NCBI GenBank assembly: GCA_018268335.1
Contig: JAFDWT010000089.1
Location: forward strand, 1-59,795
DNA length: 59,795 bases
Direction: 5' to 3'
From: Armatimonadota bacterium
GTDB lineage: Bacteria > Armatimonadota > Fimbriimonadia > Fimbriimonadales > Fimbriimonadaceae
In this document: one piece after another, positions 4,860 through 41,107 of the stretch
Layout: each line of letters opens with the position of its first letter
Numbering within the stretch: the first letter of the stretch is position 1
The notes under the pieces: model-generated
The model's database searches: none
What the model was told of the DNA's origin: nothing
Seen by the model: the letters and a program-made list of their open reading frames with translations, nothing else
Program-made: the position numbers and the translations under genes

Positions 4860-4868
4860 TGCGGTCAC
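4845..4868. terminator. Hairpin spanning two convergent stop codons
   Basis: GTGACCGC (4845-4852) and GCGGTCAC (4861-4868) form a perfect 8-bp stem with an 8-nt loop that contains the oxidoreductase stop; the right arm contains the stop of the opposing gene. The plus strand then reads TCTTTAA, a poor T run. It is probably a weak bidirectional terminator. Confidence 0.5.
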
Positions 4869-5983
4869 TCTTTAACCAAATACGCACCCTGGCCCGGGCT
4901 CAGGGTCACCTTCTTGACGGTCGCCTGAGTCCGTTGGTCACGGTACACACCGCCAAGCTCCAGCGTCACAGAAACTCTGGACGGGTTCCATGCGACCATG
5001 CCATTGGCGAACCGACGTGTCTGCGCCTGGCCGTTGGGCGTGCGATGGCCGTCCACCGCTTTGCCCAAGAGGGGACTCCACTCTTTTCGCCAAGCGTGGC
5101 GGTGGCCAAACGTGCTGTCGGCATACAGGAACCCGGCATCGGTGTAGAGCAACGTGCGCACCAGTTCCCGCCAAGCCGACTCGACGTCCGAGTCCTTGCC
5201 AAAAATCTCGACCATACTCCGGGTCGGCTTGCGCATCAGCGAGTCGTGGTGGGCTACGCGGGCGTAGAACTTCTCTTGGTCACCGTCCGCCGTGTGGTGG
5301 ACGCTGTCCTCGTACATGATCCCGTTCAACTGTGGCAGCACCCACGCTAGGCCGTCGCTGTCCCAGCCGGCGTTGGCCATGATGAACCGGTCCGGACGGC
5401 TCTTCCGCAGCAGACCAAGCAGCTCCATCCACCCCTTCTTCGCCCGGTCGTCGAACCGCAGGTTGTCCAAATACAGGCCGGTCTTCCCTTCCGTCGCCTC
5501 CGCGATAGCGTCGATCCGCTTGGCGATGTGCTTGATGTAGCCAGGATTGTCCGTCGCCATGTTGTAGCAACCTTTCCAGAAGCTCACTTTCTGTCCCTTG
5601 TCGTCCCGGAACCACCAGGGGCTGTCTGCCGGGTACGTGCCTTCATTTGCCTCAAAGAAGTAGGTCTCCACAATGACCTGGGAGTCGGGGTGCTCCTTGT
5701 AAAACTTCGCGATGGTGGCCTTTGCTTTGGCTACTCCTGCCGCGTCGATCTCGGTCGCCATGTCGGCGTTCGCGTTCGCCTTGAACCGAAGGCCAAGTCC
5801 ATCGGTGCCGATTAGGACCAGCGCATAGTTGCCGGCCTTGTCCCACAAGGCACCAGGCCCGTTGTAGGGTGACCACAGCATGCCGACGCGGGGAAACGGC
5901 CTCGCGTCCAAGTCTCGGGACTGCAGGGCGACCATCGGCGCCAAGGCCGCTAACGATGCGAGGAGCATGGCCCCAGAATACAT
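4865..5983 (-). CDS. Secreted TIM-barrel glycosidase-like protein
   Basis: A 372-residue protein with an N-terminal signal-like stretch (MLLASLAALAPMVALQ) lacking strong basic residues. The body reads as an alpha/beta barrel: GMLWSPYNGPGALWD, VIVETYFFEAN, TGLYLDNLRFD, MANAGWDSDG and NGIMYEDSVHH lie at strand ends. The LYLDN Asp and MYED Glu are plausible catalytic acids, as in putative glycosyl-hydrolase families of this shape. A beta-rich C-terminal tail (GGVYRDQRTQATVKKVTLSPG) resembles the sandwich domain that closes such barrels. I cannot assign a numbered family. The start could be ATG 5983 or ATG 5968; TATTCT stands 6 nt before the latter, which would fit a leaderless mRNA. Confidence 0.68.
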   Translation of the reverse strand: MYSGAMLLASLAALAPMVALQSRDLDARPFPRVGMLWSPYNGPGALWDKAGNYALVLIGTDGLGLRFKANANADMATEIDAAGVAKAKATIAKFYKEHPDSQVIVETYFFEANEGTYPADSPWWFRDDKGQKVSFWKGCYNMATDNPGYIKHIAKRIDAIAEATEGKTGLYLDNLRFDDRAKKGWMELLGLLRKSRPDRFIMANAGWDSDGLAWVLPQLNGIMYEDSVHHTADGDQEKFYARVAHHDSLMRKPTRSMVEIFGKDSDVESAWRELVRTLLYTDAGFLYADSTFGHRHAWRKEWSPLLGKAVDGHRTPNGQAQTRRFANGMVAWNPSRVSVTLELGGVYRDQRTQATVKKVTLSPGQGAYLVKE

Positions 5984-5994
5984 GCCGACGCCCT

Positions 5995-6010
5995 TGTCAA
6001 AGGTTTGACA
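5995..6010. promoter_or_regulatory. LacI-like palindrome, copy 3 (variant)
   Basis: TGTCAAAGGTTTGACA has the same outer half-sites as copies 1 and 2 but GG at the centre instead of CG. It lies between the tRNA and the glycosidase-like gene. TTGACA (minus) is 14 nt before TATTCT, the same geometry as at copy 1. Confidence 0.45.
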
Positions 6011-6031
6011 TTTGCCGTCGGCGAAAGCAGG

Positions 6032-6107
6032 TGGTGGGACCGGCGGGGTTCGAACCCGCGACCAAGTGGTTATGAGCCACCTGCTCTAACCGCTGAGCTA
6101 CAGTCCC
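6032..6107 (-). tRNA. tRNA with anticodon CAT (Ile2-like or elongator Met)
   Basis: A complete cloverleaf: acceptor GGGACTG with CGGTCCC, D arm TAGCTCAGCGGTTAGAGC, anticodon stem GGTGG/CCACT around loop CTCATAA, T arm GCGGG-TTCGAAC-CCCGC, and an encoded CCA (6034-6032). The anticodon CAT is at 6074-6072. The body (GAGCAG before the anticodon stem, TTGGTCG after it) resembles the lysidine-modified tRNA-Ile2 of other bacteria more than elongator tRNA-Met. I therefore favour Ile2, but this rests on memory of consensus sequences. TAAACT at 6125-6120 is a likely -10 box. Confidence 0.93.
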
Positions 6108-6152
6108 GGCTAGGCTGAGAGTTTACCAGTCGCCCGACTAGCCCTTAGCTGC

Positions 6153-8564
6153 TCACCCCTGGCCGCGCAAGTCCAGTGTACGCAAAGCAGACTCGCCACT
6201 AGCCTGGAAAAGCACTGGCGTGTTCACGCTTTTCCCATCAAGTTCGGCTGCATATGGACCGTGGCCGGACACCGTGATCCGGATGGTGTCGCCCCGGTAT
6301 CGTCTGGTCAATTCAAAACCTGGGAGAGCAGTCGGCAGGTTCGGATCAACAAGCAACCCTTCAGGCGTCGCCCTAACGCCAAATACCCAGTGAACGAGAG
6401 CCCGGCGCATCCACGCGGCGCTGCCCGTGTACCACGTCCAGCCGCCACGTCCAGTATAAGGCGAGTCTGGCCCATCGACATTGCCCGGCATCACGTACGG
6501 CTCGGCGGCGTAGAGCAAAGCATCCTCAGCTGAACGGACCGGCGGACACATACCGCGCCAAATCTGCCAAGCCGTCTCTGGATCGCCAGCCTTGGCGAAT
6601 GCCTGCACCGCCCAAGTGGAAGCGTGACTGTACACGCCGCCGTTCTCCCGCAAGCCGGGGGCGTAGCGGGTGATGTAGCCAATATACGGATCGACTTCGT
6701 CATAGGCCGGATCGAGCAACAGAGCGCCGAACGGCTTCACGAGCCTCTCCTTGACAGCTTGCATCGCCCTGGCAGACCGATCGAGACTGCCGATACCAGT
6801 CAAAACCGACCAGGTCTGCGGATTCAAAAAGATCTGGCCCTTCGGCCGCGTCTGGCTGCCGAAAGGGCGGCCCAGGTCGTCTGTGCCCGCGATGTACCAG
6901 TCGCCATCCCAAGCATGCTGCTCGACGGAAGACTGAAGTGCATGTGCCTCGGTAGAAAACTCGCGGGCAACATCGCCAAGTCCGACTGAGTCCAGAACCG
7001 GTGCCAGTCGAGTCAGCACCGAATAGAGGAACATAGCGTCCCACACGGATTCGCCTTTACCGTCGATGCCGGCGTGCGAGAGGCCGTCGTTCCAGTCACC
7101 AGATCCCAGCAAAGGAAGACCGCGAGAAGACCGCCGGTCCAACGCCCGGCGGACACCGCGAAGGCAGTGCTCCAGCAAGGTCCCTCGTTCTCCAGCCATC
7201 CGCGTCGACCGGTCGACAAAACTGAAATCGTGGTCCAGGAACGCGATGTCGCCAGTCTCGTCCAGGAAGTCCAGCGTCCCATGCGCCAGCCACATGCATG
7301 TGTCGGAGTGGTGGCTGTCGACGGCGATGGTCGTGCCGGGGTGCCACCAATGCAACACGCCGCCGTCGGCGAACATCGACTCCGCGTGCCGTCCGATTTG
7401 GAGCTTGGTCACCGCTGGGTCGGTGTCTAGTTCCATCAGGCTGTCTTGCAGTTGGTCTCGATAGCCGTACGCCCCGCCCTGCTGGTAGTAAGCGCACCGA
7501 GCTAGAATCCGCCCGACCAGCGCCTGGTTGGGCAGCCACCTGTCCGTCATCAGCGAGACGACAGGGTCGGCGCAGGCAACCTGCAGGCCTGCGCACTGGC
7601 GCTGCAAAGTTGAAATTCTAGCTGCGAGCAGTTCGTCTGCAGCCTCGACTGAGACACCAGCCGCCACTTGAAGGGCGGCTTCTCGTGATTCCTCGGCACC
7701 CAGAACAAAGACAACTCGCGCTCGCTGGCCCGCCTCCAGACGGATTGTTCCCCGAAGTCCGGCGATGGGGTCGTCCCATCGTCCAGTGACGCCTGCGGGC
7801 CTGCCATCGAGCAGGGCCTCCGGCCTGTCCAAGCGTCCAGCCGGACCCAAATATGTGCCCTTATCGCCGAACCACTCGACGGAATCGAGACCCTTGGCGG
7901 AGAAATAGCCGTACCGCGTGGCCTCCGGTCGCTCTCTTGTCCCCTCGCGCAGGCCGGTCCTCTTGTGAGCGACGAAGGTATCGCCCACGGCCTCGGTGGT
8001 CACAAAGAGCCGATGGAACTCGCGGTGCCAATCACCCTGCGCGCCTAAGTGCCAGTCAATGTAGGAACCGACGATCAATTCGCGCGTCGCGTCCGAGTCA
8101 TTGGCGACATCCAGAATCCAGTACTCGCGGGCGCCCTCGTCGGCAACAAAGACAGTCTGCCGGGTCCGGACACCGTGGAGTTCCCGCTCGAAGACGCTTC
8201 GTCCAAGTCCATGGGTGACTCGGTCCGAGCCTCGCTTCTTGTCGGGTGCAAAGGTCGTGCTCCACACCTCGCCTGCTGCAGGGTCCGCCAGGTAGACGAA
8301 TCGACCGTAGTTCTCGACCGCCAAGTCTTGTTCCCAGCGGGTCAGCCGGAACAGCTGGCAGTTGCCGACCCAGGAGAAGCCGCCGCCCATTTGGCTGATG
8401 ACCAAGCCGTACTCCTCGTTGGCCAAAACGTTGACCCACGGTCGCGGTGTCTCGACGTCGGAGATGACGAAGTCTCCGGCTGCGTCGAAGGCACCATAGG
8501 CGCTGGCTCCAAGTCCTGCCCAACTCGGCGTAGCACTGGCGGTGGCGACACGATTGGAGACCAT
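6153..8564 (-). CDS. GH94-family glycoside phosphorylase (cellobiose phosphorylase-like)
   Basis: An 803-residue protein, the normal size for the family. The N-terminal beta-sandwich has NPxxxY-like features (WVNVLANEEYGLVISQMGGGFSW), then a helical (alpha/alpha)6 barrel, then a beta C-terminus. The catalytic-acid motif is seen as GSGDWNDGLSHAG, with the Asp at residue 490 by my count. These enzymes split a beta-linked disaccharide with phosphate to give a sugar 1-phosphate, in the cytoplasm and without a signal peptide. The acceptor specificity (cellobiose, chitobiose, laminaribiose and others) is not decided. It diverges from the rhamnose operon across a shared LacI-type site. The preceding region has AGGG about 13 nt from ATG, so translation initiation is weakly marked. 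Confidence 0.92.
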   Translation of the reverse strand: MVSNRVATASATPSWAGLGASAYGAFDAAGDFVISDVETPRPWVNVLANEEYGLVISQMGGGFSWVGNCQLFRLTRWEQDLAVENYGRFVYLADPAAGEVWSTTFAPDKKRGSDRVTHGLGRSVFERELHGVRTRQTVFVADEGAREYWILDVANDSDATRELIVGSYIDWHLGAQGDWHREFHRLFVTTEAVGDTFVAHKRTGLREGTRERPEATRYGYFSAKGLDSVEWFGDKGTYLGPAGRLDRPEALLDGRPAGVTGRWDDPIAGLRGTIRLEAGQRARVVFVLGAEESREAALQVAAGVSVEAADELLAARISTLQRQCAGLQVACADPVVSLMTDRWLPNQALVGRILARCAYYQQGGAYGYRDQLQDSLMELDTDPAVTKLQIGRHAESMFADGGVLHWWHPGTTIAVDSHHSDTCMWLAHGTLDFLDETGDIAFLDHDFSFVDRSTRMAGERGTLLEHCLRGVRRALDRRSSRGLPLLGSGDWNDGLSHAGIDGKGESVWDAMFLYSVLTRLAPVLDSVGLGDVAREFSTEAHALQSSVEQHAWDGDWYIAGTDDLGRPFGSQTRPKGQIFLNPQTWSVLTGIGSLDRSARAMQAVKERLVKPFGALLLDPAYDEVDPYIGYITRYAPGLRENGGVYSHASTWAVQAFAKAGDPETAWQIWRGMCPPVRSAEDALLYAAEPYVMPGNVDGPDSPYTGRGGWTWYTGSAAWMRRALVHWVFGVRATPEGLLVDPNLPTALPGFELTRRYRGDTIRITVSGHGPYAAELDGKSVNTPVLFQASGESALRTLDLRGQG

Positions 8565-8618
8565 GCGAGCAGAACCCTATGCGGCAACAGGTGCCGACAG
8601 AACGAAAATGGTACCGCA

Positions 8619-8628
8619 GAACCGGTTC
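8619..8628. promoter_or_regulatory. LacI/GalR-type operator between GH94 and the rhamnose operon
   Basis: GAACCGGTTC is a perfect 10-bp palindrome that fits AAnCGnTT. It lies 54 nt before the GH94 start and 44 nt before the transporter start, in the only intergenic gap of this locus. Its arms differ from the TCAAACGATTGA sites, so a different regulator is likely. Confidence 0.55.
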
Positions 8629-8672
8629 AGTAGGTTGCAATTCGGCTCGCGATCCGCCTAACCTGTCTGCTC

Positions 8673-10163
8673 ATGTCCAGCTTGACGGCACGTGGACTCA
8701 CCGTCGCCTACGGCGGCGTCGAGGTTTTGGGCAGTGTCGACCTCGACTTGCGGCCGGGAGAACTCCGTGCCATTGTCGGTGAGAACGGAGCTGGTAAGTC
8801 CAGTTTGGCCAAGGCCTGCTCTGGTGTCGTCAGGCCCGTTGCCGGCGTCATCGAGATCGACGGCCAAGCACGATTCTTTGCCAATCCACGCGAAGCCCTC
8901 GACGCTGGCGTCTGCCTCGTCCACCAAGAGCCACTTGGCTTCGACGACTTGAGCGTCGGCGAAAATGTCTGCGCCGGTGCGTGGCCGCGCAAGAGCGGCG
9001 GCATCGATTGGAAGCAGGTCCATAACCAAGCAGCCGCCTGCCTTCAACGGATCCAATTTGACATCGACACGAGGCGTCGGCTGGCTAGTTTGTCGGCAGC
9101 CGAACGGCAAGCGGTCGAACTGGCCCACGGATTGGCCCGCGGCGCGAGGGTCTGGTTTTTTGATGAGACTTCGGCGGCGCTGACACCCACTGAAAGCGCA
9201 CGGCTGTTCGCCGTGATGCGCCAATTAGCCGCCGAGGGCTGCGCGGTCGGCTTCGTGACTCACCACTTGCAAGAAGTGGTCGAACACGCCGACGTCATCA
9301 CCGTCTTGCGAGACGGCAAACTCGTCGGCGTCCTCGACAAGGGGTCGTTCACCCAAGCCGATTTGGTCAAGCTCATGGTGGGTCGGTCGGTGGAGTTGGA
9401 TTCGCCCTCAGCCCACAAGCCGGGCGAAACCGTCTTGCGCGTCAGACTCCTTTGTGTTCCCGGAGCCGTTCAGGACGTGTCGTTCGAAGTCAAGGCAGGC
9501 GAAGTCGTTGCTTTGGCTGGGCTGGTCGGCGCAGGGCGCACTGACGTCGCTCAAGCGGTCTGCGGATTGTCCCGTTACCGTGGTGAAGTCGAAGTCTGCG
9601 GCCAAGACGTCCGGCGCCGGTCAGCTGCGGCCCGATGGCGCGAGGGTCTGGCCCTTGTGCCCGAGGACCGGCAACACCAAGGGCTGCTCCTTCCCCTATC
9701 CATCTGCACCAACGCTACGCTGGCGTCTCTGGGCACCTTCTCGAAGGTGGGCTGGCTAGACAACATAGGAATTAGGTCAGCGACTGTGGAAAAGGGCAAA
9801 GAGCTTGGTCTGGTCTATCAGTCGCCCGACCAAGAAGTCCGCCTCCTCTCGGGAGGCAACCAGCAGAAGGTCGCCTTGGCCAAAGCCCTTTTGGCCAAGC
9901 CCAAGCTCCTTGTCCTAGACGAGCCCACACGAGGAGTCGACATCGGTGCAAAGTACGACGTCCACACGCTTGTCCGCCAGCTAGCTGACCAAGGAGTCGC
10001 GATCCTCATGGTCTCGAGTGACCTACCCGAGGTCATGGCCCTGGCGCACCGTATTGTCGTGATGCGCAAGGGCACGGTGGCGGCCGAATTCGCCCACCAG
10101 GACGCTACTCCGGAGAAGATCATCGCGGCGGCTTCGGGAGGTGACAGTGCGCTGGCCTCGTGA
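8673..10163 (+). CDS. rhaT: Rhamnose-type ABC importer ATPase, two-NBD (RhaT/RbsA family)
   Basis: A 496-residue double ATPase of the RbsA/MglA type. NBD1 has a canonical Walker A (GENGAGKSS, near residue 37), Walker B reading WFFDETSAALTP, and an abridged signature SAAERQ. NBD2 has a degenerate Walker A (GLVGAGRTD) but a perfect LSGGNQQK signature and LDEPTRGVD. This split of a good site 1 and degenerate site 2 is the rule in the family. It leads an operon with two RbsC-like permeases, a RhaS-like binding protein, LutABC and rhamnulokinase, which makes L-rhamnose the best substrate guess. No Shine-Dalgarno site is visible. Confidence 0.88.
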   Translation: MSSLTARGLTVAYGGVEVLGSVDLDLRPGELRAIVGENGAGKSSLAKACSGVVRPVAGVIEIDGQARFFANPREALDAGVCLVHQEPLGFDDLSVGENVCAGAWPRKSGGIDWKQVHNQAAACLQRIQFDIDTRRRLASLSAAERQAVELAHGLARGARVWFFDETSAALTPTESARLFAVMRQLAAEGCAVGFVTHHLQEVVEHADVITVLRDGKLVGVLDKGSFTQADLVKLMVGRSVELDSPSAHKPGETVLRVRLLCVPGAVQDVSFEVKAGEVVALAGLVGAGRTDVAQAVCGLSRYRGEVEVCGQDVRRRSAAARWREGLALVPEDRQHQGLLLPLSICTNATLASLGTFSKVGWLDNIGIRSATVEKGKELGLVYQSPDQEVRLLSGGNQQKVALAKALLAKPKLLVLDEPTRGVDIGAKYDVHTLVRQLADQGVAILMVSSDLPEVMALAHRIVVMRKGTVAAEFAHQDATPEKIIAAASGGDSALAS

Positions 10164-11118
10164 GGGAACGGCGGTCGCCATGACCGTCCTTGTGGTTGTT
10201 GCCGCTACCGCCCGCGACCCCCGCTTCCTTTCGCCGCAGACCTTGGACAGCGTCCTCCTGTGGTTGCCAGTCCTCCTGGTCGTCGCGCTGGGCCAGATGC
10301 CCGTCATCGTCACCAAGGGCATCGACATCTCCGTCGGGTCCACCGTCGGGCTCGTCGCGTTTTCAGTCGGCCTGATCGGCAAGGTGAACCCGTCTTTGCC
10401 AGTTCCTGTTCTTTTTGCGTCCGGGCTCGCCCTTGGTGCCTTGCTGGGTTCGCTGAACGCCGTTCTCGTCGCCATTGCAAAGGTTCCGCCTGTCGTCACC
10501 ACCATCGGCACCTTGACCGCCTTCCGCGGCATGGCCTTTCTCGTCGCCCAAGGCAAGCAGATCGACACTAACAACGTCGCGACCGCCCTGACCGACTTAG
10601 GCCGGAACGGCGTCCACTTGGGTCCAATCACCGTCAATTGGCTGCTCTGGCTAGCATTCATCCCTGGAGCACTGTTAGCTTGGGTGCTAGCTCGGAGTGC
10701 GATCGGCAGGACGGTCTACGCGGTCGGCGGCAACCCGGTCGCCGCTGCCTTGCGCGGCATGGACGTCAAGCGGATTTTGTTCTCCGTCTACATCTGGAGC
10801 GGGGCATGCGCCGGACTTGCCGGGGTGCTCTATCTGGGGCGGTACGGCTTTGTCAGCGCGGCCAGTGCTGGAGTCAACCTGGAACTCAACGCCATCGCCG
10901 CCGTGGTCGTCGGTGGCGTGCCGGTCTCAGGCGGTTCGGGGTCTGTCCTTGGCGTCTTGGCGGGCTGCGTCTTGTTGGCGGTCGTCAATGTCGGGCTGAG
11001 TGTGCTGGGCATCGCCGCCGATTGGCAGTTGCTGGCCTACGGCGCGGTCGTGATGGCTGCGCTTTTGGTGGACGCGGTGGGCAGGCGCGCCAAGGAGAGT
11101 TCCGTTGTCGCGGCGTGA
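10147..11118 (+). CDS. rhaP: Rhamnose-type ABC importer permease 1 (RbsC/RhaP family)
   Basis: A 323-residue polytopic permease with roughly eight to ten spans. Family hallmarks are TKGIDISVGSTVGL, PPVVTTIGTLTAFRGMAF and AVVVGGVPVSGGSGSVLG. I chose GTG 10147 rather than GTG 10141 because GGAGG (10137-10141) stands exactly 5 nt before it. The gene overlaps the ATPase by 17 nt and the second permease by 14 nt, so it is translationally coupled. The two permeases would form the heteromeric channel of the importer. Confidence 0.88.
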   Translation: MRWPREGTAVAMTVLVVVAATARDPRFLSPQTLDSVLLWLPVLLVVALGQMPVIVTKGIDISVGSTVGLVAFSVGLIGKVNPSLPVPVLFASGLALGALLGSLNAVLVAIAKVPPVVTTIGTLTAFRGMAFLVAQGKQIDTNNVATALTDLGRNGVHLGPITVNWLLWLAFIPGALLAWVLARSAIGRTVYAVGGNPVAAALRGMDVKRILFSVYIWSGACAGLAGVLYLGRYGFVSAASAGVNLELNAIAAVVVGGVPVSGGSGSVLGVLAGCVLLAVVNVGLSVLGIAADWQLLAYGAVVMAALLVDAVGRRAKESSVVAA

Positions 11119-12046
11119 CTTGGTACCGGTGGGCTTACTGGCCATCGTCCTCTTTGTGGGCTCACGTCTGTCCGCGCGGTTTCTGGACGCGCCGTACTTG
11201 CTTGACACATTGAACCTATATGTCGAAGCCGGTCTTCTGGCGACGGGCATGACGTTCGTGATCGTCTGTGGTGAAATCGACCTGTCGGTCGCCTCGACAA
11301 CTGTCTTAGTCGCTTGCGTGGTGTCGAAGTTTCTTGGCCCAGAGACGAACCCTGTTGTCTTGGTTGCCATGTCGGTCGCCATCGGTTCATTGCTTGGCCT
11401 GGTGAATGGGGCCCTCGTGACCATAGGTCGAGTCCCATCGTTTTTAGCCACTCTGGCGACGATGGCGACCTACCGAGGTGTCGCCCAGGCATGGCTCGGG
11501 CCGTTCTCGGCCAAGTGGCCGGTCATGAAAGGACTGGACAGAGCCCATCTAGGCAATAGCCCGGTGCCCTGGCCGCCGGTGATATGGCTTCTCGTTGCAG
11601 GCGCAGCGGGTCTTGTCTTGCACCGCACCGTCTTTGGCCGACAAGTCGCAGCGGTCGGTACCAACGCCATCGCCTCCAGGTTTAGCGGACTGCCCGTTGA
11701 GCGCACTCAGCTGGCAGTATTCGCCTTGTCCGGTGCCATGGCTGGGCTGGCGGCGGTGTTCTTGGGCTCACGACTGGGCGTCGTCCGCCATGACCTGGGC
11801 CGGGGCCTAGAACTCGACGCGATCACCGCCGTCGTGGTCGGCGGCACCAGCATCCTTGGTGGCCAGGGCTCGATGGCCGGCACCGTGGCCGCACTACTGC
11901 TGGTGGCAGCCGCCAAGACTGCTATGGGAGTCGCGGGCGTCAAGCCCGAAGTCCAGGTGACCGTCGTCGGTGTTCTGCTCGTTTTGGCCGTTTTGGCCGG
12001 TAACATGGCAGGGCTAGCCCGTCGCAAGGCGCCGACGCAGGCTTGA
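11105..12046 (+). CDS. rhaQ: Rhamnose-type ABC importer permease 2 (RbsC/RhaQ family)
   Basis: A 313-residue polytopic permease homologous to its upstream neighbour: CGEIDLSVASTTVLVA, VPSFLATLATMATYRGVAQ and AVVVGGTSILGGQGSMAG. It starts at TTG 11105; AAGGAG (11093-11098) lies 6 nt upstream, which settles this rare start codon. It overlaps the preceding gene by 14 nt. It is followed after 13 nt by the binding-protein gene. Confidence 0.88.
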   Translation: MSRRDLVPVGLLAIVLFVGSRLSARFLDAPYLLDTLNLYVEAGLLATGMTFVIVCGEIDLSVASTTVLVACVVSKFLGPETNPVVLVAMSVAIGSLLGLVNGALVTIGRVPSFLATLATMATYRGVAQAWLGPFSAKWPVMKGLDRAHLGNSPVPWPPVIWLLVAGAAGLVLHRTVFGRQVAAVGTNAIASRFSGLPVERTQLAVFALSGAMAGLAAVFLGSRLGVVRHDLGRGLELDAITAVVVGGTSILGGQGSMAGTVAALLLVAAAKTAMGVAGVKPEVQVTVVGVLLVLAVLAGNMAGLARRKAPTQA

Positions 12047-12059
12047 GCAAGGAAAAACC

Positions 12060-13115
12060 ATGTTGCGGACGTTGATTGTCGCCGGTGCCATTGTCGGCAT
12101 CCTGGCCGCTGGCTGCGGCCCTGCCCCTGCTGATAAGCCGACCAGCGAAACCCCAGGAGGCGCTGGATCCAAGCTCCGCATCGTTTTCGTCCCCAAGAGC
12201 GCGGGCAACCCCTACTTCGCCGAAGTCTCGAAGGGACTGGAAAAAGCGGCCAAAGAGCTCGGCGCAACCGTCGAGACCCAAGCCCCGACGACCGCCGACG
12301 CTACGTCACAAGTCACGACGATCAAGGACGCCGTCCAGCGGGGTTGCGACCTGCTGGTCATTTCCGCCAACGCCCCCGACACCCTGAACGACGTCTTGGA
12401 CGAGGCGCGCAAGAAGGGCGTGACCGTGGTCACTGTTGACTCGGACATCACCGGCAACGAGACCCACCGCGACGCTTCTGTCCTGCCGGTCGACCAGGAG
12501 AAAGTCGGCCCAGCACTGGTCGAGTCGCTGGCCTCCTTGACCGGTAGCGAAGGCGAGTTCGCTATCCTCAGCGCCGCAACCGACGCTCCCAACCAGAACA
12601 AGTGGATCGCAGGCATGAAGGAGACACTTAAGAACCCCAAGTACTCCAAGCTCAAACTGGTCGACACTGTCTACGGAGACGATGAGATGCAAAAGAGCAC
12701 GACCGAGATGGAGGCGCTCTTGACCAAGTATCCGAACCTGAGGGCAGTCGTCTCTCCAACTTCAGTCGGCATGGGCGCCGCGGCGCAAGTGCTCGAAACC
12801 AGCGGCCGCTATCCTGGCGGGCCGAAGGCCAATGGCACTGGCATCGTCTTGACCGGTCTGGCCACTCCGAACCAACTGAAGAAGGCGGTCGAAAAGGGCG
12901 TCGTCACCAAATTCCACTTGTGGTCGCCAGCTGAAATGGGCGAAATCGCCGCCCACCTGGGCTCGATGCTGCACAGCAAGAAGGTCACCGCTGACGTCGG
13001 CAAGACGTTCGACGTGCCCGGTATGGGGACCAAGACGTTTGTGGACAAAGGCGTGGTGTATGTCGGCCCGCTGACGACCTTCGACAAATCAAACATCGCG
13101 AACTTCGACTTCTGA
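12060..13115 (+). CDS. rhaS: Rhamnose-type periplasmic binding lipoprotein (RhaS-like)
   Basis: A 351-residue lipoprotein with lipobox ILAAGC (Cys19) and a Gly/Pro linker. The type 1 periplasmic-binding fold follows, as in RbsB/RhaS: IVFVPKSAGNPYFAEVSKGLE, DLLVISANAPDTLNDVLDEARKKGV, TVDSDIT, and VVSPTSVGMGAAAQVLE. It would capture the sugar outside the membrane and deliver it to the two permeases encoded just upstream. The placement next to rhamnulokinase supports L-rhamnose. The start ATG at 12060 follows a short AAGGAAAAACC tract. Confidence 0.88.
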   Translation: MLRTLIVAGAIVGILAAGCGPAPADKPTSETPGGAGSKLRIVFVPKSAGNPYFAEVSKGLEKAAKELGATVETQAPTTADATSQVTTIKDAVQRGCDLLVISANAPDTLNDVLDEARKKGVTVVTVDSDITGNETHRDASVLPVDQEKVGPALVESLASLTGSEGEFAILSAATDAPNQNKWIAGMKETLKNPKYSKLKLVDTVYGDDEMQKSTTEMEALLTKYPNLRAVVSPTSVGMGAAAQVLETSGRYPGGPKANGTGIVLTGLATPNQLKKAVEKGVVTKFHLWSPAEMGEIAAHLGSMLHSKKVTADVGKTFDVPGMGTKTFVDKGVVYVGPLTTFDKSNIANFDF

Positions 13116-13124
13116 GCCAGGACG

Positions 13125-13856
13125 ATGCGCGTCCGATTGATGCTGACGTGCCTGTGCGACGCCTTCTACGGCGACGTCGGCCGGGCGACCGTCCGTGTGC
13201 TTGAGCACGCCGGTTGCCAGGTCGAGTTCGATGACCGCCAGACGTGCTGTGGCCAGCCCGCGTATAACTCGGGCGACCACGAATCGGCCGCGCGGGTGGC
13301 GCGACACACCTGCGCCGTCTTCGCCGGCGACACGCCGGTCGTGTCGCCTAGTGGCTCCTGCACCGCCATGGTCCGGCACGGCTATCCGCGTCTTAGGCCC
13401 CCTCTCCCTTCCGAGGGAGAGAGGGCTGGGGGTGAGGGCTCACCCTTTCCGATCTTCGAGCTCGCCGAGTTTCTGACCGAAGTCCTTGGTATCACCTCAT
13501 GGCCAGGCGCGACGTATCCAAAACGGGTCGCCTTCCACCGCGCCTGCCACGGTCGTCCGATCGGCCTGGGCGACAAAGCCGAGCGACTCCTAGCGACCGT
13601 GCCTGGCATTGAGTTGGTCCCCTTGACTGAGCAAGAACAGTGCTGTGGTTTCGGAGGCGCGTTCGCCGCCAAGGAGGGATTTCTCTCCCAGGCCATCGGA
13701 ACGTCCAAGCTGGATTGCTTTGCGGACACGGGTGCCGATGAACTAGTCAGCGGCGACATGGGTTGCCTGATGCACCTTTCGGGTCTCGCTTCGAAATCTG
13801 GGCGTCCGATCCGCACACGGCACTATGCCGAAGTCCTCGCCGAGGTGTGCGGATGA
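13125..13856 (+). CDS. lutA: L-lactate oxidation Fe-S subunit LutA (CCG domain)
   Basis: A 243-residue soluble protein with two CCG-type cysteine motifs, TCCGQP (C41-C42) and QCCGFGG (C173-C174), plus SPSGSC and GDMGCLMH. This is the LutA/YkgE layout that binds iron-sulfur clusters. With LutB and LutC it oxidises L-lactate to pyruvate; here the lactate would come from the lactaldehyde branch of rhamnose breakdown. Residues about 91-109 (RPPLPSEGERAGGEGSPFP) are unlike the family and are encoded by a palindromic repeat (13397-13447). The reading frame is kept. The start ATG follows AGGA, and the stop overlaps lutB (ATGA). Confidence 0.88.
   Translation: MRVRLMLTCLCDAFYGDVGRATVRVLEHAGCQVEFDDRQTCCGQPAYNSGDHESAARVARHTCAVFAGDTPVVSPSGSCTAMVRHGYPRLRPPLPSEGERAGGEGSPFPIFELAEFLTEVLGITSWPGATYPKRVAFHRACHGRPIGLGDKAERLLATVPGIELVPLTEQEQCCGFGGAFAAKEGFLSQAIGTSKLDCFADTGADELVSGDMGCLMHLSGLASKSGRPIRTRHYAEVLAEVCG
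13397..13447. repeat. REP-like palindrome inside lutA
   Basis: The sequence CCCCCTCTCCCTTCCGAGGG, with AGAGAGGGCTGGGGGTGAGGG after it, matches the style of the dispersed CCCTCTCCC...GGGAGAGGG palindromes of many bacteria. It is read in frame as PPLPSEGERAGGEG in a loop between the two CCG motifs. Confidence 0.6.
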
Positions 13857-15187
13857 GCAGCCGGGTCGACACTTTCGCCAGGTCAATGCCGACCGCGACT
13901 GCCGCTCGTGTCCGACGGGCCACCAGGTTGGTCGCCGACAAACGAATGCCGACGCTGTCAAGCGTCTTCGCCGATCCAGAAGCCGCCCGGACCGCTGCGG
14001 CGGATACCAAGCGGTATGTCTTGGACAACTTGCACCGGCTGCTCCTGGAGTTTGAGAGAAATGCCATCGCCAACGGCATTCAAGTCCACTGGGCCCTAGA
14101 TGCCGCCGAGGCCCGCGAGACGATCGTCGGAATCTGCGAACGGTCCGCGCCCAAGTGGAGCATCGTCGCCAAGGCCAAGTCGATGGCCACTGAGGAAATC
14201 CACCTTAATGAGGCACTATTCAAGGCTGGATATCCGCCGGTCGAAACGGACTTGGGCGAGTTCGTCATCCAGCTAGACCACGACACGCCGAGCCACATTG
14301 TCGCGCCGATCATCCACAAGGACCGCTTTCAGGTCGCCCGGTCGTTCGAACGTGCCCACGTCGGCCCCTACACCCAAGTCCCCACAGAGTTGGCCCTGCA
14401 AGCCCGCCACTACCTGCGAAAACAGTTCCAGGCCTCCAAGATCGGCGTGAGCGGCGTCAACTTCGCCGTCGCCTCGACCGGGCGGATCGTGATCGTCGAG
14501 AACGAAGGCAACAATCGTCTTTCCACCACCGCCCCCGACGTGCACATCGCAGTGATGGGCATTGAAAAGCTGTTGCCGACCGAGGACGACTTGGCCTTGT
14601 TCCTCCCGATCCTCGCCGGTTCGGCCACTGGCCAGCAGATCACCACCTACGTCCACATGGTCACTGGTCCCCGCCAAGGAGCAGAGACCGACGGCCCCCG
14701 CGAGGTGCATCTTGTCCTGCTGGACAACGGTAGGACCGATGCGATGGCTTCCGAGCAGCGCGACATCTTGAAGTGCATCCGTTGCGGCGCGTGCCAGAAC
14801 ATCTGCCCTGTCTATCGGGCCGCGAGCGGGCACGGTTACGGTCACGTCTATGGCGGCCCGATCGGCGCTGTGTTGGCTCCGTCGCTGGATTTTGCCGCCA
14901 ACAGAGAACTGCCCTTCGCCAGTTCGCTTTGTGGTGCCTGCGAAGAGGTTTGCCCTGTTAAGATTCCGATCCCTGACATGCTGGTCGACCTGCGCACTAA
15001 GTCCACCGCAGCAGGTTCGTGGGCGATGTTCGCGACCGGCGCGACCAACCCGAATCTCTGGCGGGCGGGTTTGGCGTTGACACCGTGGCTTGGCGGTATC
15101 GGCGCCAAGGCCTCTGGCTGGGCGGAGTTCCGCGACCCACCCAAAGGCCAAGGCGACTTCAGGAGGTGGTGGCGTGAACGCGCGTGA
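13853..15187 (+). CDS. lutB: L-lactate oxidation Fe-S/LUD subunit LutB
   Basis: A 444-residue protein. The N-terminal LUD domain shows IVAKAKSMATEEIHLNEAL and VGVSGVNF-like residues (IGVSGVNFAVASTGRIVIVENEGN). The C-terminal half carries two 4Fe-4S motifs, CIRCGACQNICPVY (first Cys 308) and CGACEEVCPVKIP. It is the central electron-transfer subunit of the LutABC lactate oxidase complex. The start is ATG 13853 in an ATGA overlap with lutA, although the frame stays open upstream. The end overlaps lutC by 14 nt. Confidence 0.9.
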   Translation: MSSRVDTFARSMPTATAARVRRATRLVADKRMPTLSSVFADPEAARTAAADTKRYVLDNLHRLLLEFERNAIANGIQVHWALDAAEARETIVGICERSAPKWSIVAKAKSMATEEIHLNEALFKAGYPPVETDLGEFVIQLDHDTPSHIVAPIIHKDRFQVARSFERAHVGPYTQVPTELALQARHYLRKQFQASKIGVSGVNFAVASTGRIVIVENEGNNRLSTTAPDVHIAVMGIEKLLPTEDDLALFLPILAGSATGQQITTYVHMVTGPRQGAETDGPREVHLVLLDNGRTDAMASEQRDILKCIRCGACQNICPVYRAASGHGYGHVYGGPIGAVLAPSLDFAANRELPFASSLCGACEEVCPVKIPIPDMLVDLRTKSTAAGSWAMFATGATNPNLWRAGLALTPWLGGIGAKASGWAEFRDPPKGQGDFRRWWRERA

Positions 15188-36770: not shown

Positions 36771-37529
36771 TCACCTACCCAGCTTCAGCCACTCGTTCCA
36801 GATGAAGGACATTCGGTCGATCACCAGAGCGAAGCGAGCCATGACCGTGCTGCCGAACAGTGCGCCGAAACCGACCATCAACAGCCACCGTCCAACCGTG
36901 TTGAAGCTCCTCAAGAACTTGCCCTTCAGCTCGAAGTTGAAGAGGAAGTAGCTGAGCGCGGTCACCAACGTCACGACGAAGATGAAGTTAGACAGAGCCT
37001 GCGTGGCGTAGATGTTCGACCGGATGACGGCAGCAGCATCAGGTGAAAGTGGCACCTTGGCGCCAGCTTCGTTGAACGTATAGAGAGCCGGGCGGGACAG
37101 CGACGACCATGTCGTCGGAATCACTGGCTGCATCGAGCCGTAGATTTGTGCGCCGTACTGCGTCCACCAGTTCTTCACCTGCTGGCCCGACCAAAGGCCG
37201 AGGATGACGCCGATGGGGATCTTGCTCATCCAGTTGTGCTTCTTGCTCATCACCATGTAGCCACACAGGCCGATGGGAAGGAGCACGGCATACATGAAGT
37301 AGCCAGGGACCATCTTGCTGGTGCCTTCTGCCGGCACGCCGGTCATCTTCAGCCACCACTGGTCATAGAGGATCGAGGTCCAGATCGCCACCAGCGAATA
37401 GCCAGCCGCCAATCCCAAGAAGATGTGCTCGCAGAAGCGATAGAACTTGTTCTCTTTGTAGAGGACGCTGTACAGGCCGATTGTAAAGAAGACGCCGACC
37501 GAGAGTTTGATAAACAGGTATTGGTCCAC
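36771..37529 (-). CDS. Conserved polytopic membrane protein, unknown (cluster protein F)
   Basis: A 252-residue protein with about six transmembrane helices (DQYLFIKLSVGVFFTIGLYSVLYKE at the start, LLMVGFGALFGSTVMARFALVIDR near the end). A 60-residue extracytoplasmic-looking loop with Trp, Tyr and Pro (VKNWWTQYGAQIYGSMQPVIP) divides helices 4 and 5. I recognise no family. GTG 37529 was chosen: AAGGGAG stands 9 nt upstream, 1 nt after the stop of protein E. It is the last member of the six-gene block before recO. Confidence 0.78.
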   Translation of the reverse strand: MDQYLFIKLSVGVFFTIGLYSVLYKENKFYRFCEHIFLGLAAGYSLVAIWTSILYDQWWLKMTGVPAEGTSKMVPGYFMYAVLLPIGLCGYMVMSKKHNWMSKIPIGVILGLWSGQQVKNWWTQYGAQIYGSMQPVIPTTWSSLSRPALYTFNEAGAKVPLSPDAAAVIRSNIYATQALSNFIFVVTLVTALSYFLFNFELKGKFLRSFNTVGRWLLMVGFGALFGSTVMARFALVIDRMSFIWNEWLKLGR

Positions 37530-37530
37530 G

Positions 37531-38493
37531 TTATTCAGCTCCCTTCTTGGCTTTCTTTTGAGCAAACATAGCGACGTTGCCGACGACAACAGCGAAGATC
37601 AAAAGGCTGAGCGCGATGTGCAAGTCAGCGTAGTACTGAGTGGCCCGCGCCAGGTCTTTGCCTGACCCTAAAGGCGGCACTTCCCCGACGATCTTGCCAG
37701 CGTTCACGTAGATCTTGCCGCCTTCTTCGGGATGGTTGATGCCGTGCTTCATCATGTACTCCATGTCGTAGCACCCCTTTAGCCCGCCCGCGAAGCCCTT
37801 CAACTGCCTGGCTTGATAGTACGGCAACATGCCTGGAGCGATGACGCCTGTAGCCATTCCGGTGAGTTCAACTTTGTCGTTGAGCCGCTGGACGGCGAAG
37901 TCGATAGTGTCCGAGGCGGTGACCACGACCATCAACCCGAAATCGCCCATGCTGTTGACACCCTTCAGAACTGGAGTCTGGAAGATGTCCGTCTCGTTGC
38001 CGTCCGGCATGCGCACGCGACGGCCTCCCCAGGCCTTCTTGATGTCGTTGCGCATGCTCTCGTTGGCGCCCTCCGCGTTGGGGAAAAGACCAAGACCGAT
38101 GTAGTCGGTGCCCCGCTCGTACACCTTCAAGTTCATGGCTTTGCGCTCTTCGTTGATGTGCCGGATGACGTCGGTAGCCACCTGGAACGCTGGCGCGTCC
38201 GATGTGGCAGAGTAGTAGACGAACTTGATCTTGCGGGTCATCAAGATGCGAAGCAAGCACTCCAAGTGCGCCATGTTCTCGCCACGTGTTGAGATCGTCC
38301 AGTCGGTCTGCACGACGACGGGCTTGTTTGGGTCGATCTTCATCAACTTCGCATAGAAGTCGGCGGACGAGTCGTCGACGGCGACGGGAATCTCCGCCTT
38401 GAGGAACAACCCGATAGAGGTCAGCACAACGAGGACCACATAGAGGACCCGCCGGTCGACTTTCTGCAATTTGTCCCAGAACGCGGCGTTCAT
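37531..38493 (-). CDS. Conserved membrane-anchored protein with large exported domain, unknown (protein E)
   Basis: A 320-residue protein. A basic N-terminus (MNAAFWDKLQKVDRR) precedes one membrane helix (VLYVVLVVLTSIGLFL), so the next 260 residues should lie outside the cytoplasm. A second helix near the end (IALSLLIFAVVVGNVAMFA) returns to a Lys-rich tail. The domain is alpha/beta in style (KPVVVQTDWTISTRGENMAHLECLL, FVYYSATSDAPAFQVATDVI, DFGLMVVVTASDTIDFAVQRL). No catalytic motif or family is recognised. It overlaps protein D by one base (TGATG). Confidence 0.78.
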   Translation of the reverse strand: MNAAFWDKLQKVDRRVLYVVLVVLTSIGLFLKAEIPVAVDDSSADFYAKLMKIDPNKPVVVQTDWTISTRGENMAHLECLLRILMTRKIKFVYYSATSDAPAFQVATDVIRHINEERKAMNLKVYERGTDYIGLGLFPNAEGANESMRNDIKKAWGGRRVRMPDGNETDIFQTPVLKGVNSMGDFGLMVVVTASDTIDFAVQRLNDKVELTGMATGVIAPGMLPYYQARQLKGFAGGLKGCYDMEYMMKHGINHPEEGGKIYVNAGKIVGEVPPLGSGKDLARATQYYADLHIALSLLIFAVVVGNVAMFAQKKAKKGAE

Positions 38494-39407
38494 CAGGCGC
38501 TCACCCCTCCCCGTTCGAGGCCGAGCCAGATCCGGAGCCCCATAGCGACGGCGCCGAGTCCGACACCGAACTCAATGGCCCGAATACTCGGTGTTTGCAG
38601 CGTCGATTTCACCCACCCGGCCACCTCACTGATCTTGAAGTTGTCCAAGAACGGGTTGTGCGTTTGAGCGACCAAATTGTTGATTCCCGTTGTCCAAATA
38701 AAGTCGAGTGCACCCATTAGGCTGAGCATCAGGATCAGCGCGCTGGCCATTAAGACGGTGGACTCGACCGACCGCACCCGGAAGGCGCGATAGGCAGCCG
38801 ACAAGATGAAGAACGCGATCATCGAAAACATCGCCGCTTCCATCTGCTGGTAAGCACCGTCGAAAAGCAAGTCCTGGCCGTACTGCACCGGCCCCCAGTT
38901 GGCCATTTCAAGTAGCTTGCCTTGCGGGTCCTGGAACTTCTTTTGGATCCAGTCCACATAGCCGAAGCCGACCATGGTGACCAGCGACACCATCAGCAGC
39001 ACGCTGTATTTCCAGTCTTGTGCCTTGCGGCGAATGCGCTGGGTGTGCACCGTCAACAAGCTCATGATGCCAAGGCCGAGCAAGAACGCCGTCAAAATCT
39101 GAGCGACATCGGCGATGCGTGGCACCGCGTCATCGAGCCAGAAGGCGACACCCTCGACCGCGTTGTTCGGGAGCGTCCCCGGCTCTCGGGCGACTGCCAC
39201 CGGCCAGAGCCAGAGCAGAATGTAGAACAAACCCGAGGCAAAGGTGAACGAGAAAACGATCATCCGCCGAGCCCGGATCGGCGCCTTGGTGAAGGCGAAC
39301 ATCACACCCAGACCGAGGATGAAAGTGACGATGATCTTCACCCACAGCTCAGGACTGTTGGGCGTCATGCCGAAGAACGTCAGCCGCGCTTGGGCAAGGA
39401 GCTCCAT
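38493..39407 (-). CDS. Conserved polytopic membrane protein, unknown (protein D)
   Basis: A 304-residue protein with seven or eight transmembrane helices, among them WVKIIVTFILGLGVMFAFTK, ILTAFLLGLGIMSLLTVH and STVLMASALILMLSLMGAL. Two Arg/Lys-rich loops (APIRARRM and HTQRIRRKAQDWK) point to the cytoplasm. A long segment DPQGKLLEMANWGPVQYGQDLLFDGAYQQME is probably outside. No transporter or enzyme signature is seen. One-base overlaps join it to C (TAATG) and E (TGATG), so strict stoichiometry by coupling is likely. Confidence 0.78.
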   Translation of the reverse strand: MELLAQARLTFFGMTPNSPELWVKIIVTFILGLGVMFAFTKAPIRARRMIVFSFTFASGLFYILLWLWPVAVAREPGTLPNNAVEGVAFWLDDAVPRIADVAQILTAFLLGLGIMSLLTVHTQRIRRKAQDWKYSVLLMVSLVTMVGFGYVDWIQKKFQDPQGKLLEMANWGPVQYGQDLLFDGAYQQMEAAMFSMIAFFILSAAYRAFRVRSVESTVLMASALILMLSLMGALDFIWTTGINNLVAQTHNPFLDNFKISEVAGWVKSTLQTPSIRAIEFGVGLGAVAMGLRIWLGLERGGVSA

Positions 39408-40360
39408 TACTTACCCTCCTCCTTCGGCGCGTCAGGATCGGGCTTTCGCGGTGGGTCGACTTTCTTCATGGCTTCAGTGATGAACGGGTTGAAGACTTGG
39501 AAGGTAAATGTGTCGTTGGCCTTCTTCAGCTTGTCCTTTTCCTTGACAGTGGCCGAATCGACTGGCGTCCAGTTGGCATTGCCCTTGTCGTCCTCGCCCC
39601 TGTGCTGAGTGGCCGGCTGGACACGCTCGATCGAGTTCAGGAGGAACCCAAAGAACACCATCGCCGCAATCAGGATCTTGCCCCAGTCCTGGCCGATCAA
39701 GCTGCCCACGAGCACCGGCTCGCGGGTCAAATAGGCGCTGGCCGCGTAGTACTCGTCGCCGATTAGCACATAGTCGCAAGCGGCGATGAAGAACGGCGTC
39801 TGGGCCGTCTTGGTCGAACCCGCGATCTGGATAGCGCCGATGGCGTTGGCCGTCTCGGCAAAGATCAGCGACTCGGCGTAAAACTCACCGAGCAGGAACG
39901 AAGCCGCGGCCTGGTCGCGCAGGATCATGCCGCTGACACCAGCAGCAAACGCGAACTGGCGGTCGCTGACAAACTGGACGGTCTGTGAGTCGAACCTCTC
40001 GATCATCCCCGCGCCCTGGTACACGTCGCGGATCACCTCTTGCGCGACCGTATAAACGGCGGCGTTGGCGCAGCAGACCCGGATCGGCGTCCCGAACTGG
40101 GAGGCCGTCTTGGCGACTTGCTTAAAGATGTTGACCGCCTGCACCGAAATGGCGTTTAGGTCGCCGATACCAGGGACCATGACGATCGGCCGGCCCATCT
40201 CGGTCGCCCGTCCGATGGCGTCGTCTAGGGCGTTCAGGCCAGAAATACGGCGGATGAAGAGTTCCTTCTTACCCTTCGCGCGGTAGATGTTCGAGAGGAC
40301 GAACGTCACCATCATCAGGGTGATGAATATGCCGAACCATCCAGTGTCTAGGTATTGCAT
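39407..40360 (-). CDS. Membrane-anchored protein with cytosolic alpha/beta domain, DUF6754-like (protein C)
   Basis: A 317-residue protein. Helix 1 (GIFITLMMVTFVLSNI) is followed by YRAKGKKELFIRR, so the next domain should be cytosolic. That domain starts ISGLNALDDAIGRATEMGRPIVMVPGIGDLNAISVQAV, then GTPIRVCCANAAVYTVAQEVIRD and GMILRDQAAASFLLGEFYAESL. I believe this is the DUF6754 family, from memory. A second helix near residue 230 is followed by a charged tail ending PPRKPDPDAPKEEGK. It overlaps protein B by 13 nt. The role is unknown. Confidence 0.78.
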   Translation of the reverse strand: MQYLDTGWFGIFITLMMVTFVLSNIYRAKGKKELFIRRISGLNALDDAIGRATEMGRPIVMVPGIGDLNAISVQAVNIFKQVAKTASQFGTPIRVCCANAAVYTVAQEVIRDVYQGAGMIERFDSQTVQFVSDRQFAFAAGVSGMILRDQAAASFLLGEFYAESLIFAETANAIGAIQIAGSTKTAQTPFFIAACDYVLIGDEYYAASAYLTREPVLVGSLIGQDWGKILIAAMVFFGFLLNSIERVQPATQHRGEDDKGNANWTPVDSATVKEKDKLKKANDTFTFQVFNPFITEAMKKVDPPRKPDPDAPKEEGK

Positions 40361-40665
40361 GTCGGGTTGGCCTCGAGTCCACGCGGGGCGTCGTCTCTTT
40401 CCAGGGCTTGGATAACCAGTTCGATATTGTCCCGCTTGCGCATCAAGCGGCTGCAGTCGTCGACCATGTCGACGCCCACAAAAGGTACCAGAAACGGGGA
40501 GAGCGCGACCATTGCCTGAGCGGCGAACGGCGCGATGGGTTTGTGCGACTCCAGGAAGAAGATCGCCGGTGACTCCAGCCCCTTCTTTTTGATCGCGGCG
40601 ACGATCTTGTCGACCAGGGCGTCCCGGTCGTCGTCCGACAGTTCAGTTTCCCAAAAGCTCTGCAT
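40348..40665 (-). CDS. Small soluble protein of the unknown membrane cluster (protein B)
   Basis: A 105-residue protein with no signal. Acidic N-terminus (ETELSDDDRDALVDKIVAAIKKKGLESP), then IFFLESHKPIAPFAAQAMVALSPFLVPFVGVDMVDDCSRLM, which could be a membrane-associated hairpin, then a charged end. No family is recognised. It overlaps protein C by 13 nt and protein A by 23 nt, so it must be translated with the cluster. Confidence 0.7.
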   Translation of the reverse strand: MQSFWETELSDDDRDALVDKIVAAIKKKGLESPAIFFLESHKPIAPFAAQAMVALSPFLVPFVGVDMVDDCSRLMRKRDNIELVIQALERDDAPRGLEANPTCNT

Positions 40666-41107
40666 GCCTTTCCTGAAGTGCGCGTATTGTGGCTAATACT
40701 TCCTCGCGGTTGCCATTGAACCGAAGATAAACGCCGCGAAACGGCGCGACTTTCGAGTTTTCTGGCACCGGAGACAGCTTCACACCTAGCTCCCCGTCGA
40801 CCACACGGCGCACGTCACCCCACTTGACTTCCGTCGAGCTCCATCCGCACTTGCTCTGCGCGCCATTGTCGTCAAGACGGTAGCGAACAGGAAGAAACAG
40901 CTCGGATGTGGAAAGCAATACCGCGCCGACTCCCAGAAAAGACGCCACAACATTCCGCAAAAACGCAAAGCCCATGAGCCCGGCGAAGACCGCCAGAGCC
41001 ACGACGACCCAACGCTTGGCGGTCTGCCCGTCGCCGAATTGCACCGTCCATTCCAACGGGGTCACTGGTTGGCTTTCTGCTTTTGGGACCGCCACCTGGT
41101 GAACCAC
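40643..41107 (-). CDS. Membrane protein with PH-like domain (protein A)
   Basis: A 154-residue protein with two close membrane helices (VVVALAVFAGLMGFAFL and VVASFLGVGAVLLST). A small beta domain follows, FLPVRYRLDDNGAQSKCGWSSTEVKWGDVRRV, typical of bacterial PH-like (bPH2) proteins that hug the membrane. It overlaps the 3' end of glmU by 46 nt from GTG 41107; GTG 41095 with AGGGGTGG 8-12 nt upstream is an alternative start. It is the first member of the block of unknown membrane proteins that runs to recO. Confidence 0.7.
   Translation of the reverse strand: MVHQVAVPKAESQPVTPLEWTVQFGDGQTAKRWVVVALAVFAGLMGFAFLRNVVASFLGVGAVLLSTSELFLPVRYRLDDNGAQSKCGWSSTEVKWGDVRRVVDGELGVKLSPVPENSKVAPFRGVYLRFNGNREEVLATIRALQERHAELLGN

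Follow-up and report, generated by a model that had tools for sequence, protein, structure and literature searches.

The six-gene block

The DNA analysed here (the window) is a stretch of 59,795 nucleotides (nt) from an Armatimonadota bacterium of the family Fimbriimonadaceae (contig JAFDWT010000089.1, positions 1–59,795; assembly GCA_018268335.1, 3.09 Mb, 93.6% complete). On its minus strand lies a tightly packed block of six genes, A to F, which we identify as part of an eight-gene module of membrane proteins and a putative ATPase. A (40643..41107, 154 amino acids, aa) forms the upstream end of the block and is followed by the small B (40348..40665, 105 aa), C (39407..40360), D (38493..39407, 304 aa), E (37531..38493) and, as the last gene, F (36771..37529, 252 aa), which begins with GTG; an alternative TTG start would give F a longer open reading frame (ORF) overlapping E. 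The overlaps are 23 nt between A and B and 13 nt between B and C, one base is shared at C/D (TAATG) and at D/E (TGATG), and E and F are 1 nt apart. A overlaps by 46 nt the end of glmU, which ends at 41062, and the neighbour on the other side is recO, from 36733, identified by Pfam and NCBIfam. An initial annotation of this DNA, made without database searches, had described six ORFs between glmU and recO that overlap or lie 1 nt apart, and this is the arrangement that we find.

C is a full-length member of the family DUF6754 (PF20539: E-value 4.9e-90, 301.6 bits against a gathering cut-off of 27, profile positions 14–250 of 257), as the initial annotation had suspected; no viral relatives of C were found. 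None of the other five proteins reaches a cut-off in Pfam or NCBIfam, in keeping with the earlier view that the proteins have no recognisable function, and scans of the families of E (58 relatives), D (50) and F (43) gave scattered weak matches only and no known family. A has two adjacent predicted transmembrane (TM) helices (centred at residues 41 and 63) followed by a conserved C-terminal domain, with conserved positions W20, W96, LSP 111–113 and RG 124–125. The proposal that A is PH-like finds an echo in bPH_6 matches for 4 of 29 relatives, all of them weak (best E-value 0.0054). B has a single hydrophobic stretch (centre 56) and the motif ExPAILFLEMHKPL...PFLxP.

Distribution and gene linkage

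DUF6754 is present in 220 of 251 Armatimonadota genomes, or 166 of 179 if only near-complete genomes are counted. The family was not detected in any of 14 well-known control genomes. Among the matches listed from 84,980 species more than 570 were relatives of C; the 80 that we kept include members from at least eight further candidate phyla, named as in their records, at 44–50% identity, among them Poribacteria, Coatesbacteria, WOR-3/Stahlbacteria, Eisenbacteria, Fermentibacteria/Aegiribacteria, Zixibacteria, Latescibacterota and Edwardsbacteria. The order A-B-C-D-E-F is found at most loci, in more than 25 Armatimonadota families. Scattering of C, D, E and F in other genomes had been named beforehand as the result that would speak against their belonging together; instead, of the 107 distinct C genes whose flanking sequence is long enough, 99 have D-E-F directly after them on the same strand, with median gaps of 2–12 nt. 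The conservation of the six-gene order in so many families, and of C-D-E-F across other phyla, argues that the block is not a product of chance.

The C-D-E-F quartet is also duplicated as a whole, with three tandem quartets at locus L147 and two each at L154 and L131. Over 114 quartets the pairwise distances of the four proteins correlate at 0.86–0.92, against at most 0.06 after label permutation; as the permutation leaves shared species history in place, the correlation is a measure of co-inheritance and not of contact. The three complete quartets of L147 (WOR-3; 3973–14700) share 65–81% identity, and the genome has six C genes in total. At L054 (9331–11148) a tandem pair of E genes lies inside one quartet.

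The neighbours glmU and recO are restricted to the window's own family, and elsewhere the neighbour domain scans revealed diverse housekeeping genes. The location is thus uninformative on function, and the suggestion that it hints at a role in the cell envelope has to be abandoned. In some WOR-3 loci (L127, 6045–14492, as well as L100, L119 and L125) the quartet is followed, in constant order, by genes for DUF4388, a roadblock-like protein, ExbB, two ExbD and a TonB-like protein. At six loci of Fermentibacteria/Aegiribacteria (L121, L132, L138, L143, L145 and L155) the genes for both subunits of GcvP (glycine dehydrogenase) lie directly upstream of A.

Two further members, M and L

In deep Armatimonadota families two genes, which we term M and L, are located between B and C. 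The order A-B-M-L-C-D-E-F is found also in Fermentibacteria/Aegiribacteria, B-M-L plus quartets occur in Zixibacteria and Coatesbacteria, and 12 complete eight-gene clusters could be assembled. M (about 600 aa) is an ASKHA-type ATPase according to its match to the Pfam family PF13941, "MutL" (E-values down to about 1e-126; 421.8 bits against a gathering cut-off of 27), and all three nucleotide-binding motifs (DCGSTTT, DIGGATTD and GSGG) are present in 17 of 17 copies. It remains below the cut-offs of the related NCBIfam models TIGR01319 and NF040745 (GlmL family 158.7 against 204 bits and GlmL 217.5 against 475, respectively), and has no Pfam match to PilM or FtsA. No mutase appears among the top 25 families in the domain scans of neighbours, which covered the cluster neighbourhoods. 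L is conserved and about 372 aa long; its biotin/lipoyl match is weak, and a C-terminal stretch looks KOW-like by eye.

In the window's family M and L are located away from the block. The L gene of the window genome lies on another contig (C22:19389–20507), where it overlaps a response-regulator gene and is situated about 2.5 kb from mreBCD; proximity to mreBCD was not seen at the other L loci examined. Two Zixibacteria loci (L116, 13389–14108, and L120, 13441–14178) encode a secreted protein of about 240 aa and of unknown family between M and L, and at L054 the position of M is occupied by an open frame that the M profile does not recognise.

Co-loss and copy number

We analysed gene loss in a panel of 121 Armatimonadota genomes, which were searched for B, C, E, L and M, with A, D and F tied in by linkage. 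E is absent from 17 genomes, C from 18, B from 19 (thus the B family is present in 102/121) and L from 12, and the absences coincide (Fisher test: C/E p = 7e-17, E/B 9e-14, L/E 1e-10). Eleven genomes lack both L and E, with M also missing there or represented by weak fragments only, and 11/121 are without every part searched for. These eleven co-loss genomes, some of which are incomplete, span at least five families (f8, f11, f13, f26 and f16/f22), which suggests that the module was likely lost several times in Armatimonadota. Since in most of these families neither L nor M is linked to the block, the co-loss is not simply the deletion of a single locus. Two small genomes from the window's family (G181 and G185, 1.5 Mb) are without DUF6754, possibly a sign of dispensability in reduced genomes.

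Two explanations of the pattern from other envelope components were examined and rejected. The neighbours in WOR-3 and Fermentibacteria suggested a coupling to ExbB/ExbD/TonB, but an obligate one is contradicted by ExbD, which does not track the module: it is absent from the carriers G085, G117, G009, G059 and G082 and present in several non-carriers. Loss of the outer membrane as the cause of module loss is contradicted by the presence of Omp85 (BamA/Omp85) in 25 of 25 genomes tested, carriers and losers alike. Neither outer-membrane loss nor energisation by ExbBD therefore explains the module.

Copy numbers distinguish two parts of the gene set. Thirteen Armatimonadota genomes have two E genes but B, L and full-length M in single copy; several of the second loci are complete C-D-E-F quartets, and the second locus of G044, G032 and G080 showed recognisable E and F only. 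In other phyla, G253 has six C genes and G259 four, each with a single L; G255, which carries two full L genes, is an exception to single-copy L. It is thus the quartet that multiplies. Mean identity decreases from M (0.68) over L (0.55), C (0.50), F (0.40) and D (0.39) to E (0.32), a gradient from inside to outside that would be expected of a shared cytoplasmic side and a variable outer side.

Topology and predicted structure

The initial annotation had placed the alpha/beta domain of C inside the cell and that of E outside, by charge rules, and family-wide charge patterns agree with it. In an average over 56 relatives of C the near-membrane flanks of the DUF6754 domain are basic (K+R 6.3 vs D+E 2.4), so the domain is predicted to be inside. 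Averaged over 74 relatives, both termini of E are basic (K+R 3.7 and 3.8), so that the E domain is predicted to be outside. Independently of the charges, many relatives of C begin with a signal-like sequence and an fn3 ectodomain ahead of the first TM helix, which likewise puts the next domain of C inside. D and F are polytopic, as had been stated: according to TM and charge profiles D has about seven TM helices, with a predicted outside N-terminus and basic loops 1, 3 and 5, and F has about six. Forms of C with the ectodomain (59 loci) are paired with a six-helix D of about 212 aa, and forms without it (57 loci) with a longer D, of about 297 aa, in which a helix is added at the N-terminus and the predicted outside loops carry insertions; this pairing follows mostly one lineage split and counts as one or two events.

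The AlphaFold2 model of E (predicted local distance difference test, pLDDT, 94.2; predicted template modelling score, pTM, 0.90) comprises a TM helix (14–30), an alpha/beta domain and a second TM helix (283–319) followed by a basic tail. The model of C (pLDDT 87.6, about 95 for the domain) likewise shows a TM helix, a Rossmann-like alpha/beta domain and a TM helix. About 33 residues of C, many of them polar, are invariant over several phyla, against five in E. Fold searches of the PDB with both models gave no match at E < 1e-3: the fold of E resembles generic Rossmann-like domains, and C matches RCK domains of MthK first, with that of KtrA also among its nearest solved folds (E-value 4e-3 at best, TM-scores 0.25–0.54). 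Sequence profile searches of the PDB for C, D, E, F, L and M gave nothing credible.

In the models, C and E present their elements in the same order, and the alignment of the two profiles is in register; of 200 column-shuffled controls, just one did as well. C nevertheless scores as high or higher with F (25.8) and L (25.2) as with E (22.5), so that homology of C and E is unproven, and strands and helices that simply alternate, as in many folds, could account for their likeness. That the two are ancient paralogues in opposite orientation is no more than a hypothesis. D and F share no similarity.

A proposed membrane system served by an ATPase module

We propose that the eight proteins form an inner-membrane system in which C-D-E-F quartets are served by one cytoplasmic ATPase module, a reading to which we assign a probability of about 0.4. 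It builds on the gene set, linkage, co-loss, quartet duplication and charge-rule topology described above, all of which were established by computation. From linkage, parallel evolution and co-loss, C, D, E and F very probably assemble physically into one complex. The initial annotation had suggested a single membrane complex of the block, and this idea is favoured by the same data, although the unit turns out to be larger, with eight genes including M and L. For the coupling of this complex to ATP through M we see even odds, and action on an envelope substrate is a tentative suggestion.

In the proposed system D and F would constitute the polytopic core of the membrane complex, while C would keep its Rossmann-like domain in the cytoplasm, facing M and L, and E would expose its alpha/beta domain at the outer face. 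M and the soluble L, probably with A and B at the membrane, would act on C from the cytoplasm; this shared single-copy side is predicted to be cytoplasmic or peripheral. The binding or hydrolysis of ATP in M would drive or gate the D/F core. The core may handle an envelope substrate recognised through E, the variable outer contact, and a single A-B-M-L set could serve several quartets.

Several observations weigh against this proposal. The search of the window's own assembly gave no M; a genome of the same genus (G070) carries M, and the absence therefore likely reflects an assembly gap rather than loss. In most Armatimonadota the operon of the block does not include M and L, and the quartets of Poribacteria, like those of most WOR-3 clusters, stand apart from A, B, M and L. 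A faster evolution of exported domains could by itself produce the conservation gradient. To our knowledge there is no transporter driven by an ASKHA ATPase, and the interaction, the ATPase activity and the action on a substrate are predictions.

The two-sided architecture would also suit a signalling relay, in which E senses a signal outside and passes it through D and F to C and on to M and L, with M as a nucleotide-dependent switch and not a motor. RCK gating domains are among the nearest solved folds of C, response-regulator and kinase genes occur near a few loci, and the L gene of the window genome abuts a response regulator. The likeness to RCK is weak, however (TM-score at most 0.54, no E < 1e-3, no RCK/TrkA Pfam match in C), two subunits with six to seven TM helices exceed what a relay needs, and we see neither an output domain nor a constant partner regulator. 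We therefore regard a relay as possible and clearly less probable than the ATPase-served system. Somewhat more doubtful is a structural platform, in which M would polymerise or act as a scaffold, as the actin-fold proteins FtsA and PilM do, and the quartet would anchor it for envelope growth, division or a surface structure. Its appeal lies in the ASKHA fold of M, a single-copy core function in nearly all Armatimonadota, and the vicinity of L to mreBCD in the window genome. That vicinity is absent at other L loci examined, M matches neither FtsA nor PilM, the module has been lost in several lineages, and subunits with six or seven TM helices and repeated quartets would be unusual in a scaffold.

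A membrane enzyme complex, in which C and E would each contribute a catalytic Rossmann-type domain, one on either face, with M and L as an activase pair, could account for the many invariant polar residues of C, the weak biotin/lipoyl match of L and the relationship of M to GlmL-type accessory proteins; GlmL is thought to be an activase for glutamate mutase. We consider it unlikely, since E has just five invariant residues, neither domain convincingly matches an enzyme fold, C has no recognisable cofactor motif and M falls under the GlmL cut-offs. Within a family, inertia may be enough to preserve a gene order, and on this ground the genes might be independent housekeeping genes that are adjacent by chance. 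The genes are linked in at least nine phyla, whole quartets are duplicated in tandem and unlinked members are lost together, which refutes this unless the linkage counts are wrong and makes it extremely improbable. The proposed membrane system served by an ATPase is the reading that we retain. A near-universal system of the Armatimonadota, core and all-or-none and without assigned function, lends itself directly to structural work, and its gene set, topology and copy-number logic are now specific enough to test. If M does drive the complex, energy would be coupled in a way of which we know no other example.

Other features of the window

A gene for tRNA-Met (6032–6107, minus strand) was the sole RNA gene detected in the window. 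An ordinary ribose-type ABC transporter operon (8673–13115, plus strand) encodes an ATPase, two permeases and a substrate-binding lipoprotein, and a large glycoside-phosphorylase-like gene (6153–8564) is divergent from it.

Comparison with known systems

The module as an eight-gene, all-or-none unit is well supported, and in the libraries that were searched no described system matches it. Known anti-phage defence can be dismissed, as PADLOC gave no matches for A–F, M and L. The name DUF6754 conveys no function and is silent on D, E, F, M and L, and we found no description of DUF6754 or PF13941 in the literature searched. M shares its family (PF13941, TIGR01319) and intact ASKHA nucleotide motifs with GlmL/MutL, but differs in its length of about 600 aa, its scores under the GlmL cut-offs and its location with membrane proteins, and no subunit of glutamate mutase was recognised in its neighbourhood. 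The Pfam label "MutL" is thus a trap that would steer annotators to an amino-acid mutase or to mismatch repair.

In PilM-PilN-PilO-PilP of type IV pili and GspL-GspM of type II secretion, an actin-fold cytoplasmic protein sits on inner-membrane subunits that reach both sides. The module would work alike, with a cytoplasmic actin-fold protein and two-sided membrane subunits. It is nonetheless no such platform by Pfam: there is no PilM/GspL-type or PilN/PilO-type match in M, C, D, E and F, C-D-E-F are unlike PilN/O/P, and no pilin, secretin or assembly ATPase accompanies the cluster. In the RCK-gated MthK and KtrAB, too, a Rossmann-like domain in the cytoplasm is joined to a membrane core, and the RCK domain of MthK is the top fold match of C. 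Neither profiles nor folds identify C as part of an RCK-regulated channel, with no RCK/TrkA_N profile match and a fold E-value of 4e-3 at best; C is flanked by TM helices of its own, and D and F match no channel family in profile scans.

The ECF group II transporters differ from the module in their ATPase, which is of the ABC and not the ASKHA type, and in their membrane subunits, unrelated to those described here by every search made. They resemble it in the pairing of a single-copy set, which would supply the energy in the module, with several membrane units. With rather less assurance than for the system as such, one may speculate that the module represents a new class of machine, neither ABC, AAA nor ion-motive but ASKHA-driven, in which A-B-M-L would power interchangeable quartets, E would set the specificity, and C and E would perhaps be paralogues.

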